Positions 43,192 through 46,738 of a DNA stretch of 64,000 nucleotides are shown in pieces. The position numbers and the translations under genes were made by a program. Within the stretch, counting starts at the first letter, position 1. Every line of letters begins with the position of its first letter. This DNA comes from Hyphomicrobiales bacterium (GTDB taxonomy: Bacteria; Pseudomonadota; Alphaproteobacteria; Rhizobiales; NORP267). The notes beneath the pieces are model-generated. The model was given only the letters and a program-made list of their open reading frames with translations, was not told the DNA's origin and searched no databases. The DNA is taken from positions 1 to 64,000 of the forward strand of contig JAJFGZ010000047.1 in the NCBI GenBank assembly GCA_021775855.1, written 5' to 3'.

Positions 43192-44121
43192 ATGAGCGAT
43201 AGCGGCCACTGGATCGTTCGGGTCCCGAACCTTACGCCGGAAACGGCGCTCAAGATATCCGAAGAATTAGAACTGCAGCTGGATAGCGGCACCGCCGCGC
43301 ACCACGCGATCGCAAGTTTCTGTGCCGGAGGCGATGATGATTGGGCAGTGGAGGTTTCTTACTTTTCAAAACCCGAGGAAACCCTGATCACGGATTTACT
43401 GGCTGCACACCGCAACAGGGAAGGCAAGGTGCCGACAGGCATGGTCCGCCCGCTGGAAAAACGCGACTGGGTCGAAGAATCACTGAAAAACCTGCCGCCC
43501 GTCCGTGCGGGAAATTTCTTCGTTCATGGGCGGCACAATCGAGACGCGCGTCCTGCAGGTGCCGTCGCCATCGAAATCGAGGCCAATCAGGCTTTTGGCA
43601 GCGGCCACCACGAAACAACGGCTGGATGCCTGGAAGCACTCGACCAGGAAATGCGGCGCGCCCAATTTCAAAACAGCCTGGATATAGGATGCGGATCAGC
43701 TGTGTTGGCAATCGCCATCGCCAAATCTGGTCAGGGACATGTCCTAGCAACGGATATCGACCCTGTTGCCCTCGAAATCGGCGAACAGAATACACATCTG
43801 AATAACGTAGCGAACCGGGTTACATGCATCGTTGCAGACGGTTTGAATCACCCGGATATCCGCAAAAGGCAGCCGTTCGATCTGGTGATCGCCAATATTC
43901 TAAGTGGACCCCTTATCGCACTGGCAAATCCCATGCGAAGAATCATGGCGCCGGCGGGGACCCTCATCCTGTCTGGAATCCTTGCAGACCAGGCACCGCG
44001 TGTTGAAACCGCGTATCGGGCAACCGGGTTTGTTTTTCAGCGCCGCCTACTGAAACGAGAATGGGCGACCCTGGTTTTTGAATTCCGGGGCCGCCCACAA
44101 AGGTTGGGAATGAAGAGCTAG
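43192..44121 (+). CDS. prmA: Ribosomal protein L11 methyltransferase
   Basis: QAFGSGHHETTAGCLEALD, LDIGCGSAVLAIAIAK, DLVIANILSGPLIALANPM; likely start MSDSGHWIVRV at 43192. Confidence 0.9.
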   Translation: MSDSGHWIVRVPNLTPETALKISEELELQLDSGTAAHHAIASFCAGGDDDWAVEVSYFSKPEETLITDLLAAHRNREGKVPTGMVRPLEKRDWVEESLKNLPPVRAGNFFVHGRHNRDARPAGAVAIEIEANQAFGSGHHETTAGCLEALDQEMRRAQFQNSLDIGCGSAVLAIAIAKSGQGHVLATDIDPVALEIGEQNTHLNNVANRVTCIVADGLNHPDIRKRQPFDLVIANILSGPLIALANPMRRIMAPAGTLILSGILADQAPRVETAYRATGFVFQRRLLKREWATLVFEFRGRPQRLGMKS

Positions 44122-44143: not shown

Positions 44144-44308
44144 CTACGAGATTAACCCGCCAGTGGCAGGGCCGCCCAAGCCTGCAATCGACAAAATCCG
44201 ATTGATATCGAATTTTTGATTGAGACTGACGTAAGCCCTGACGGAATTGAATTCGATAAGCGAACCCAGACCGCGCCCATCACGCCCTTCAAAGACGTGG
44301 TAAGACAT
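44144..44308 (-). CDS. Unlisted 54-aa small ORF MSYHVFEGRDGRGLGSLIEFNSVRAYVSLNQKFDINRILSIAGLGGPATGGLIS
   Basis: Below the ORF-track length cut. Supported mainly by an upstream module matching that of the adjacent DUF1127 gene with identical spacing to the ATG. Confidence 0.55.
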   Translation of the reverse strand: MSYHVFEGRDGRGLGSLIEFNSVRAYVSLNQKFDINRILSIAGLGGPATGGLIS

Positions 44309-44421
44309 ATTTTTTGCTTTCTTATTTTCCTTACGCGCTCATGTTGGCGCGTTGACTTGAGCTTAAAATGGGGCATCGGCAAAATAAAAAAACCCCGGAT
44401 TTCGCATGCCAGCCCTGCATT

Positions 44422-44437
44422 TTTCGCATATGCGAAA
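44422..44437. promoter_or_regulatory. Perfect palindrome TTTCGCATATGCGAAA upstream of the 54-aa ORF
   Basis: 16-bp perfect palindrome; related TTTCGCATATGC (minus strand) at 44865-44876 upstream of the DUF1127 gene at the same distance from its ATG. Confidence 0.6.
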
Positions 44438-44465
44438 GGAATTGTTGCATTGCAAAAACAAATAA

Positions 44466-44506
44466 AAAAAGGCGGCCCTGTTCAAATGAACATCGACCGC
44501 CTTTTA
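44466..44506 (-). terminator. Intrinsic terminator downstream of the DUF1127 gene
   Basis: Minus strand AAAAGGCGG...CCGCCTTTTTTTATTTG. Confidence 0.75.
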
Positions 44507-44524
44507 AGTATGCGGGTCTAAACC

Positions 44525-44746
44525 TTAGAATGCGGCCAGATCACGTGGACGCTGCATGATATCGTCGCGTTTGATGCCGGCATTCTCGAGGGTGCGGTCG
44601 TCAAACTTGGAAAGGTGCAGGGCGACATAGCGACGACCCTGGGCCTCGCGCCCGCGAATGATAGCAGCAAAAATCTGGCTGAAAAATTCGCCAGCACGCG
44701 TCCAAAGACCAGTTTTTGTATAGTCATTCATTGTTGAAACAGACAT
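44525..44746 (-). CDS. DUF1127 domain small protein (73 aa)
   Basis: MSVSTMNDYTKTGLWTRAGEFFSQIFAAIIRGREAQGRRYVALHLSKFDDRTLENAGIKRDDIMQRPRDLAAF; the LSKFDDRTLENAGIKRDDI portion is DUF1127-like. Confidence 0.82.
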   Translation of the reverse strand: MSVSTMNDYTKTGLWTRAGEFFSQIFAAIIRGREAQGRRYVALHLSKFDDRTLENAGIKRDDIMQRPRDLAAF

Positions 44747-44920
44747 ATAATTGTCCTTTCTTTTCTCATTGCGCGCCCTTGCGAACGCGTTGACTTGGGC
44801 TAAAGATAGGCGTTTTAGGGCTGGTGAAAAGCCGAATATCTGCATATCGGCTATGCGTTTGCTGCATATGCGAAATAATATGCCGCACTGCAACGAAGCC
44901 GCGCCACCGAAAGGGATTCG

Positions 44921-46738
44921 ATGTTCCAGGGATTTGATGTGTCGGGCGGCCCTGCCCAAGTTAAAACACGCGTTGCGGCGCTGCGTGGATTACTCGCAAA
45001 ACGCCGCCTGACCGGTTTTGTCGTACCCCACGCCGACGAGCACCAAAGCGAGTATTTACCCGCAAATGCGGAACGTCTGGCATGGATATCAGGGTTTACG
45101 GGATCCGCCGGGAGCGCGATCATCCTCCGACAAAAAGCAGCTATTTTTGTTGATGGCCGCTACACGCTACAGGTCCTCGACCAGACCGACTCTTCAGTCT
45201 TCACCCCGCAATCCCTGATCGACACCCCACCGACGCGATGGCTTGAAGACCAGCTAAAATCCAGCAACCGGATTGGATACGATCCCAGACTGCACACCGT
45301 CCAAGGCGTCGAAGCGCTGGAGCGGGCCTGCAGGAACGCCAAGGCCAAACTGGTCCCTGTTGAAGACAATCTGGTCGATCAGATATGGACAGACCGCGCA
45401 GCTGCGCCAACCGGCAAAATAGTCCGGCACCCGTTACGCTATGCCGGCGTCGGCGCGGAGGAAAAACTCGAAGCCCTGCGCGCAAAGCTTGCCGGCGCGA
45501 AATGCGATGCGCTGGTCCTGACCTTGCCGGATTCTATTTGTTGGCTGCTCAATATCCGGGGCAAAGATATCGCTCATAACCCGGTGGTGCTGTGTCACGC
45601 GATCATCCGCCGCCGGGGGAAACCGACACTCTATGTCGACCCGGCCAAGCTGACCCCGGCCGTTGGAAACTATCTGGAGAAATTTTGCCGGACGAAATCC
45701 CCCCGGACGTTTGCCAAAGCGCTTGGCGATCTTGGGGCGCGCGGCAATAGATGCTGGCTCGATCCCTCAACGGCCAGCGCGTGGGTCAAGGCTGCGCTCC
45801 TAGATCGCAACCCCAAAGCCGAAATTCGCGCGGCGTCGGATCCCGTCGTTGCGTTGAAGGCTATTAAGAACAAGGCTGAAATCAAAGGCACGCGAGCGGC
45901 CCACGAACGCGACGGCGTGGCCATGTGCCGCTTCCTCGCCTGGCTCGATAAGGAAGCATTGTTGGGTAAAATTGACGAGATTTCCGCGGCCATCAAGCTT
46001 GAAGCGTACCGCCGCGATACCGGAAAATTAAAGGACATATCTTTCGATACGATATCCGGCGCGGGTCCAAACGGTGCGATCGTCCATTACCGCGTTAGTG
46101 TTGATACCAACCGGAAACTTGAACCCAACTCGCTCTATCTGGTCGATTCAGGTGGGCAATATACCGACGGCACGACCGACATCACCCGCACCATCGCGAT
46201 CGGTAAACCGAACACAGAAATGCGCGACCGGTTCACCCGGGTCCTGAAAGGCCATATCGCGATTGCCCGGGCCAGAATCCCCAAAGGCACGACAGGCGCT
46301 CAAATCGACGTCCTTGCCCGAAACCCCTTGTGGGAAATCGGTCTCGATTACAACCACGGTACTGGCCACGGTGTCGGCGCATATCTGTCAGTCCACGAAG
46401 GCCCGCAAGGCATCTCCAAACACGCCAATACGCCATTGAAACCCGGCATGATCGTCTCCAACGAGCCCGGATATTACAAGGCGAACGCATACGGAATCAG
46501 GATCGAAAATCTTGTCCTGGTGGTTGAAGACCAGAAGCCCGGCGAGGTGAGCCCGATGCTGACCTTCGAGACCCTGACGCTCGCCCCGATTGATCGGCAC
46601 CTTGTCGACCTCGATATGCTGGATGGTGACGAAACCAAATGGCTAAATGCATACCATAAACGCGTTTTCGACGTTCTTGGCCCGTCGCTCAAGGGCGCCG
46701 AAAAGGCTTGGTTGAAAGGGGCAACTGCCCCGATTTAG
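44921..46738 (+). CDS. Aminopeptidase P family (M24B) protein
   Basis: LLAKRRLTGFVVPHADEHQSEYLPANAERLAWISGFTGSAG; DSGGQYTDGTTDITRT; GHGVGAYLSVHEGPQGIS; NEPGYYK. Confidence 0.95.
   Translation: MFQGFDVSGGPAQVKTRVAALRGLLAKRRLTGFVVPHADEHQSEYLPANAERLAWISGFTGSAGSAIILRQKAAIFVDGRYTLQVLDQTDSSVFTPQSLIDTPPTRWLEDQLKSSNRIGYDPRLHTVQGVEALERACRNAKAKLVPVEDNLVDQIWTDRAAAPTGKIVRHPLRYAGVGAEEKLEALRAKLAGAKCDALVLTLPDSICWLLNIRGKDIAHNPVVLCHAIIRRRGKPTLYVDPAKLTPAVGNYLEKFCRTKSPRTFAKALGDLGARGNRCWLDPSTASAWVKAALLDRNPKAEIRAASDPVVALKAIKNKAEIKGTRAAHERDGVAMCRFLAWLDKEALLGKIDEISAAIKLEAYRRDTGKLKDISFDTISGAGPNGAIVHYRVSVDTNRKLEPNSLYLVDSGGQYTDGTTDITRTIAIGKPNTEMRDRFTRVLKGHIAIARARIPKGTTGAQIDVLARNPLWEIGLDYNHGTGHGVGAYLSVHEGPQGISKHANTPLKPGMIVSNEPGYYKANAYGIRIENLVLVVEDQKPGEVSPMLTFETLTLAPIDRHLVDLDMLDGDETKWLNAYHKRVFDVLGPSLKGAEKAWLKGATAPI

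Follow-up and report, generated by a model that had tools for sequence, protein, structure and literature searches.

A tandemly duplicated small-gene unit beside pepP with a probable LsrB/VtlR operator in an uncultured Hyphomicrobiales lineage

In Brucella, Agrobacterium and Sinorhizobium, the LysR-type activator LsrB/VtlR recognizes a box with the consensus GCAT-N3-TG-N3-T (PMC7486931; PMC8844928). Published sites lie at about -72 to -49 (PMC12595884; PMC7486931; PMC8844928; PMC10746234), and the LsrB site at PnfeR1 has been measured at -72 to -57 (PMC10746234). The reported targets are three DUF1127 proteins and AbcR2 in Brucella (PMC12595884), atu1667 (small protein Atu1667), abcR1 and vrsA in Agrobacterium (PMC7486931), and AbcR1 and NfeR1 in Sinorhizobium (PMC8844928; PMC10746234). 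In Agrobacterium LsrB, the residues C144 and C273 are reported to form a redox switch (PMC11975290), and DUF1127 proteins of Agrobacterium are reported to act on the sensor kinase PhoR and on phosphate uptake (PMC12501420). The published neighbourhood of lsrB is trxB-lsrB. Here, we describe a locus in a stretch of 64,000 nucleotides (the window) that very probably represents a new, locally duplicated example of the known LsrB/VtlR-DUF1127 circuit and not a new kind of system. As in the regulon of the Rhizobiales, the regulator ortholog adjoins trxB, the targets are small DUF1127-type genes and an AbcR-like sRNA, and the box, which in each window copy has one mismatch to GCAT-N3-TG-N3-T, would lie about 45-72 nt before the predicted start. 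Unlike in that regulon, a perfect palindrome, TCGCATATGCGA, is joined to the upstream side of the box, two target units stand in tandem, LsrB is cysteine-free and the host belongs to an uncultured Hyphomicrobiales lineage.

Two small minus-strand transcription units occupy the intergenic stretch between a plus-strand gene ending at 44121, which we take from its sequence to be prmA, and pepP, an M24 aminopeptidase gene that starts at 44921 on the plus strand. Unit B lies on the pepP side and unit A on the prmA side. The first-pass annotation had reported matching upstream regions at identical spacing, and on direct reading both distances are exact. The palindrome core GCATATGC is found at 44426-44433 in unit A (ATG at 44308) and at 44864-44871 in unit B (ATG at 44746), with its centre 121.5 nt from the ATG in both, and CGCGTTGACTT (plus strand) begins 40 nt from the ATG in both, at 44348 and 44786. 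In addition, CAAGTCAACGCG begins about 50 nt 5' of each ATG. The duplicated modules are real, and genome searches with the palindrome and with the leader lead back to the same two units. Searches for the exact 12-mer TTTCGCATATGC give three matches in the window, of which two represent the perfect palindrome of unit A read on either strand, and none in the rest of the 3.14-Mb genome; its reversed control has no match in the genome. Allowing up to two mismatches gives no enrichment in the window (6 observed vs 7.3 expected), so it is the exact matches and the extended site that carry the significance. This composite site, CGCATATGC-N6-YGCA-N2-GCYG-N2-ATGC, has two exact matches genome-wide, which are units A and B, and the next-best match has three mismatches and lies within another gene. 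When leader A is compared with the genome, the top non-self match is leader B (75% over 70 nt, E 2.2e-4), followed by a match at E 0.12.

Gene B (44525..44746, minus strand) encodes a 73-aa small protein, which is the ortholog of the pepP-adjacent genes of the same-genus relatives G001 and G002 (55-56% identity). It had been annotated as a DUF1127 gene. The family assignment is supported by the conserved core [LF]DD-x3-L/I-x3-G-x2-R and by a profile-profile comparison with classical DUF1127 proteins (hhalign probability 93%), but the score of 12.6 bits against Pfam DUF1127 (PF06568) is below the cut-off of 23.3, two other searches with gene B gave no match, and for this reason we use the label DUF1127-like. 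The invariant residues are R33, R39, L45, D49, D50, T52, G57 and R60. Like the small arginine-rich proteins of PF06568, the DUF1127-like proteins are small and share the motif [LF]DD-x-T-[LI]-x3-G-[IYF]-x-R; they differ in scoring below the cut-off, in lacking the usual LDDRLLxDIG wording and in their length of 59-77 aa. A search of plasmids with the DUF1127-like protein of a relative (tblastn) gave no match. Two genuine Pfam DUF1127 genes are present elsewhere in this genome (C45:118833 and C31:58273; L122, L123), and the composite site is absent from both.

In G001, G002, G003 and G005, a single unit is found next to pepP, in the same place. Since the same-genus relatives have one copy, the arrangement in the window is, judged by gene order, a lineage-specific tandem duplication of one ancestral unit. 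No sister species with both copies turned up in the collections that were searched. The intrinsic terminator of gene B (44464..44502, minus strand; GGCGGTCGATG...CAGGGCCGCC followed by a T run) is homologous to that of G001 and G002. It has been kept by B, and unit A is inserted between this terminator and prmA. A tandem duplication that took in the operator, the promoter, the leader and at least the gene start would explain why the spacing is identical in A and B. A hairpin near prmA was considered as a duplicated terminator and rejected because the stretch also encodes the end of prmA.

The shared module appears to combine an operator with a core promoter under a LysR-type regulator, very probably LsrB/VtlR. 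The composite operator of gene B (44842..44872, minus strand) reads CGCATATGC-AGCAAA-CGCATAGCCGATATGC and comprises the palindrome and an LsrB-type box, GCAT-AGC-CG-ATA-T. That of ORF A (44404..44434, minus strand) reads CGCATATGC-GAAAAA-TGCAGGGCTGGCATGC, with the perfect palindrome TTTCGCATATGCGAAA and the box GCAG-GGC-TG-GCA-T. The box belongs to a second element, GCA-N5-G-N-CATGC, which sits about 20 nt downstream of the palindrome. The boxes of G001 and G002 match the published consensus exactly (GCATTGCTGCCAT; GCATTGCTGCCATGC), and GCATTGCTGCCATGC closely resembles CAATGCAGCCATGCA, a Brucella motif given in PMC12595884. An upstream TGC/GCA element, TTGCAATGCAA (44445..44455, minus strand), is found in most homologous promoters, in a register that is not strictly fixed. 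The probable -10 elements are CTATCTTTAG for gene B (44800..44809, minus strand) and CATTTTAAG for ORF A (44362..44370, minus strand), and the four DUF1127-like promoters of the genus (A, B, G001 and G002) all have 57 nt from the start of the box to the end of the -10. From this conserved -10-like element and the published geometry of LsrB promoters, we infer that transcription starts about 70 nt past the palindrome centre, which leaves a 5' UTR of about 50 nt. The predicted spacing from palindrome to start is comparable with the -72 to -57 site of PnfeR1, and that to the putative -10 fits LsrB geometry. The earlier proposal of one regulator acting on two small genes through a shared palindrome-centred operator is supported, and the regulator can be given a predicted name, the LysR-type activator LsrB/VtlR.

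There are about 30 LysR-type regulators in the genome, and one of these, directly after trxB (L097), aligns over 296/296 positions to Agrobacterium LsrB (PDB 9HH1, E 4.5e-121). By this alignment, it is a full-length ortholog of LsrB, encoded in the expected order trxB-lsrB. Every tested genome with the composite site has an LsrB ortholog, as do most of those without it, and the presence of LsrB in motif-bearing genomes is a consistency check, not a correlation. Downstream of lsrB, here and in G001 and G002, there is a perfect LsrB box, GCATGACTGC(T/C)ATGC. In this genome, the box GCATGACTGCTATGC precedes an AbcR-like sRNA candidate located right after lsrB (L149:2517-2740), which is about 165 nt long and has two hairpins with anti-Shine-Dalgarno (aSD) loops, CCTCCCTCCC and TTCCCCTC, and a strong terminator. 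AbcR in S. meliloti has two anti-Shine-Dalgarno motifs and the same location (PMC8844928). The promoter of the candidate spans 58 nt from the start of the box to the end of its -10, CATATAAAG, compared with 57 nt in the DUF1127-like promoters. The candidate is conserved in G001, G002, G003 and G005, and an LsrB box together with an aSD motif adjoins lsrB in 5/5 family genomes examined. The Rfam AbcR model RF02345 (ar15) finds no match in this genome, even with this gene beside lsrB, and a scan of the lsrB-adjacent sRNAs gave just a weak ar14 match, in the relative G146; we use the term AbcR-like because the Rfam model does not recognise the candidate. It also differs from AbcR (alpha-r15) in its length and in that it is single, not tandem.

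We therefore consider it likely, with good confidence, that both units are LsrB/VtlR-activated sigma-70-type promoters that drive small genes and derive from one tandemly duplicated ancestral unit. LsrB, encoded elsewhere beside trxB, would bind the palindrome and the downstream box, which are about two helical turns apart, at predicted positions about 70 nt (palindrome) and 45-50 nt (box) before the start. The bound regulator would contact or recruit RNA polymerase and activate transcription, giving a transcript with a 5' UTR that may fold a small hairpin and is followed by the DUF1127-like frame. We suggest that a single ancestral unit lay between pepP and prmA and gave rise to a tandem pair in this lineage, that the pepP-side copy B retained the DUF1127-like gene and the terminator, and that the prmA-side copy A retained the operator, promoter, leader and start codon while its coding part diverged or decayed. 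Points against a role of LsrB are the single box mismatch in each window copy, the silence of RF02345 and the low Pfam score of gene B.

We scanned one genome per species, 84,980 species in all, with the pattern CGCATATGC-N3..6-TGCA-N4-TG-N-CATG and obtained 11 matches. In 9 of these, a DUF1127-like gene on the same strand begins about 90-170 nt further downstream. These 9 sites come from alphaproteobacteria of the Hyphomicrobiales/Roseibium type (Aquibium, Roseibium, Hyphomicrobiales/Rhodobiaceae MAGs and two others), and the remaining two matches look like chance. With a looser pattern, 397 genomes of the order yielded 13 full-type sites, all 5' of DUF1127-like genes or of ORF A (copy A), as well as about eleven scattered partial matches. 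The signature used in the species-wide scan finds DUF1127-like genes with few false matches across the Hyphomicrobiales, including some missed by Pfam. The LsrB assignment links a repeat that had lacked an explanation to a named regulon, and it takes the LsrB-AbcR-DUF1127 circuit, so far described in host-associated bacteria, into uncultured lineages. In two further genomes, G281 and G309 (L126, L127), a common composite-like site, TTCGCATATGCGAAGACCGCACGGCAGCCATG, is followed by the FNR-like TTGATCGTGATCAA, with no obvious DUF1127 gene.

The frame under the second promoter, ORF A (44144..44308, minus strand), is a putative coding frame of 54 codons that may represent either a paralog in rapid divergence or a copy in decay. 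We give about equal weight to its being a gene and to its being none, in which case the duplication would have brought along, next to the operator, promoter and leader, a decayed or truncated frame, and the 54 codons would be open by chance. Among 60 relatives there is no ortholog of ORF A, just chance matches, nearly all inside longer unrelated frames, and the profile of syntenic DUF1127-like genes (even with filters off), Pfam and NCBIfam give no match. At the composition of ORF A, 53 stop-free codons would arise by chance in 27% of cases, and the GC content at codon position 1 is low. However, the ATG and the leader are retained at identical spacing, and the similarity to DUF1127-like proteins is weak yet non-random. 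There is a local protein match to gene B (R-YV-L..KFD..R.L..AG, p 0.005), and codons 3-25 resemble, in register, the gene of G001 and G002 (p 0.004-0.007); a global alignment with cheap gaps against the syntenic proteins is significant for gene B only. The first-pass annotation had called the two small proteins paralogous. Synteny bears this out for the units, which arose by a tandem duplication seen in this genome alone; ORF A itself, however, is only weakly DUF1127-like (p about 0.004-0.01, with no profile-HMM match). The tandem copy is a small example of how a different open frame is set under an existing promoter by duplication.

The published box does not include the perfect palindrome, and a factor other than LsrB could recognize the latter. 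The palindrome would then serve a different regulator, such as a GntR-, MarR- or TetR-type dimer, whose site overlaps the LsrB box and which acts on these genes as a repressor or co-regulator. Perfect dyads are seen more often with dimeric repressors than in LysR boxes, and the AbcR-like promoter beside lsrB has the box but no TCGCATATGCGA; that promoter does, however, have its own inverted repeat, CATGCATTTTTGCATG, just upstream. Moreover, LysR activators normally occupy two sites so spaced, and published abcR1 promoters carry tandem T-N11-A motifs (PMC8844928). Palindrome and box also co-occur at near-fixed spacing in all DUF1127-like promoters found, a co-occurrence that is not independent among the pattern matches because the search pattern demanded both. 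On balance, we regard a separate regulator at the palindrome as unlikely and favor LsrB at both elements.

The leaders of gene B (44747..44797, minus strand) and ORF A (44309..44359, minus strand) both start with CAAGTCAACGCG. The former has a short CGCG/CGCG hairpin and an A-rich GAAAGGA ribosome-binding region, and the latter has an ACGCGC/GCGCGT hairpin at 44333-44352. The CGCG/CGCG hairpin described earlier is thus present, with 6 bp in A and 4-5 bp in B. What had been taken for a leader of about 130 nt is mostly operator and promoter, and the long structured leader or sRNA proposed from it finds no support in the short predicted 5' UTR or in the Rfam families. The leader is kept in both same-genus relatives and the operator far more widely; outside the genus, the leader sequence changes completely, and a 5' hairpin is still common. 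It is very unlikely that the conserved leader acts as a riboregulator or is the source of a small RNA: CAAGTCAACGCG is invariant in the four genus sequences, a CGCG stem can form in each and the S. meliloti DUF1127 leader is an attenuator with its own uORF (PMC12218461), but the Rfam scan of the locus gave nothing above chance, the predicted 5' UTR in the window holds no uORF, aSD motif or terminator ahead of the ATG, the nearly invariant stem offers no covariation by which the hairpin could be tested or supported, and the leader sequence is not kept beyond the genus. Also in favor of such a role, the DUF1127-like leaders of G044, G117, G083 and G146 (L130, L131, L132 and L133), outside the genus, can fold into a long hairpin, AGAGCGGCGCACTTT...AAAGTGCGCCGCTCT, whose loops carry an anti-Shine-Dalgarno-like CCTCCC, and these hairpins resemble a cuckoo/AbcR-type RNA within a DUF1127-like 5' UTR.

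The LsrB of this genome (L097:1243-2133, contig C5) contains no cysteine, and therefore the thiol switch described in Agrobacterium cannot operate here. Cysteine-free LsrB is found in 37 of the 48 orthologs or homologs sampled across the order and in all tested genomes with the composite site, and C144 and C273 (Agrobacterium numbering) are both present in only 3 of the 48. Most sampled orthologs thus lack the cysteines to which redox sensing by LsrB is attributed. As a tentative idea, to which we give less than even weight, the ancestral LsrB of the Hyphomicrobiales may have been a cysteine-free activator that responded to a signal other than thiol oxidation. Its core regulon would have been an AbcR-type sRNA and DUF1127-like proteins, reached through the composite operator, redox sensing would have arisen later in some lineages, and the duplicated unit described here would be evolving a new small protein (ORF A) under LsrB control. 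The promoter region of trxB-lsrB (L097:147-158) carries a palindrome, GCATATATATGC, which is a possible autoregulatory site.
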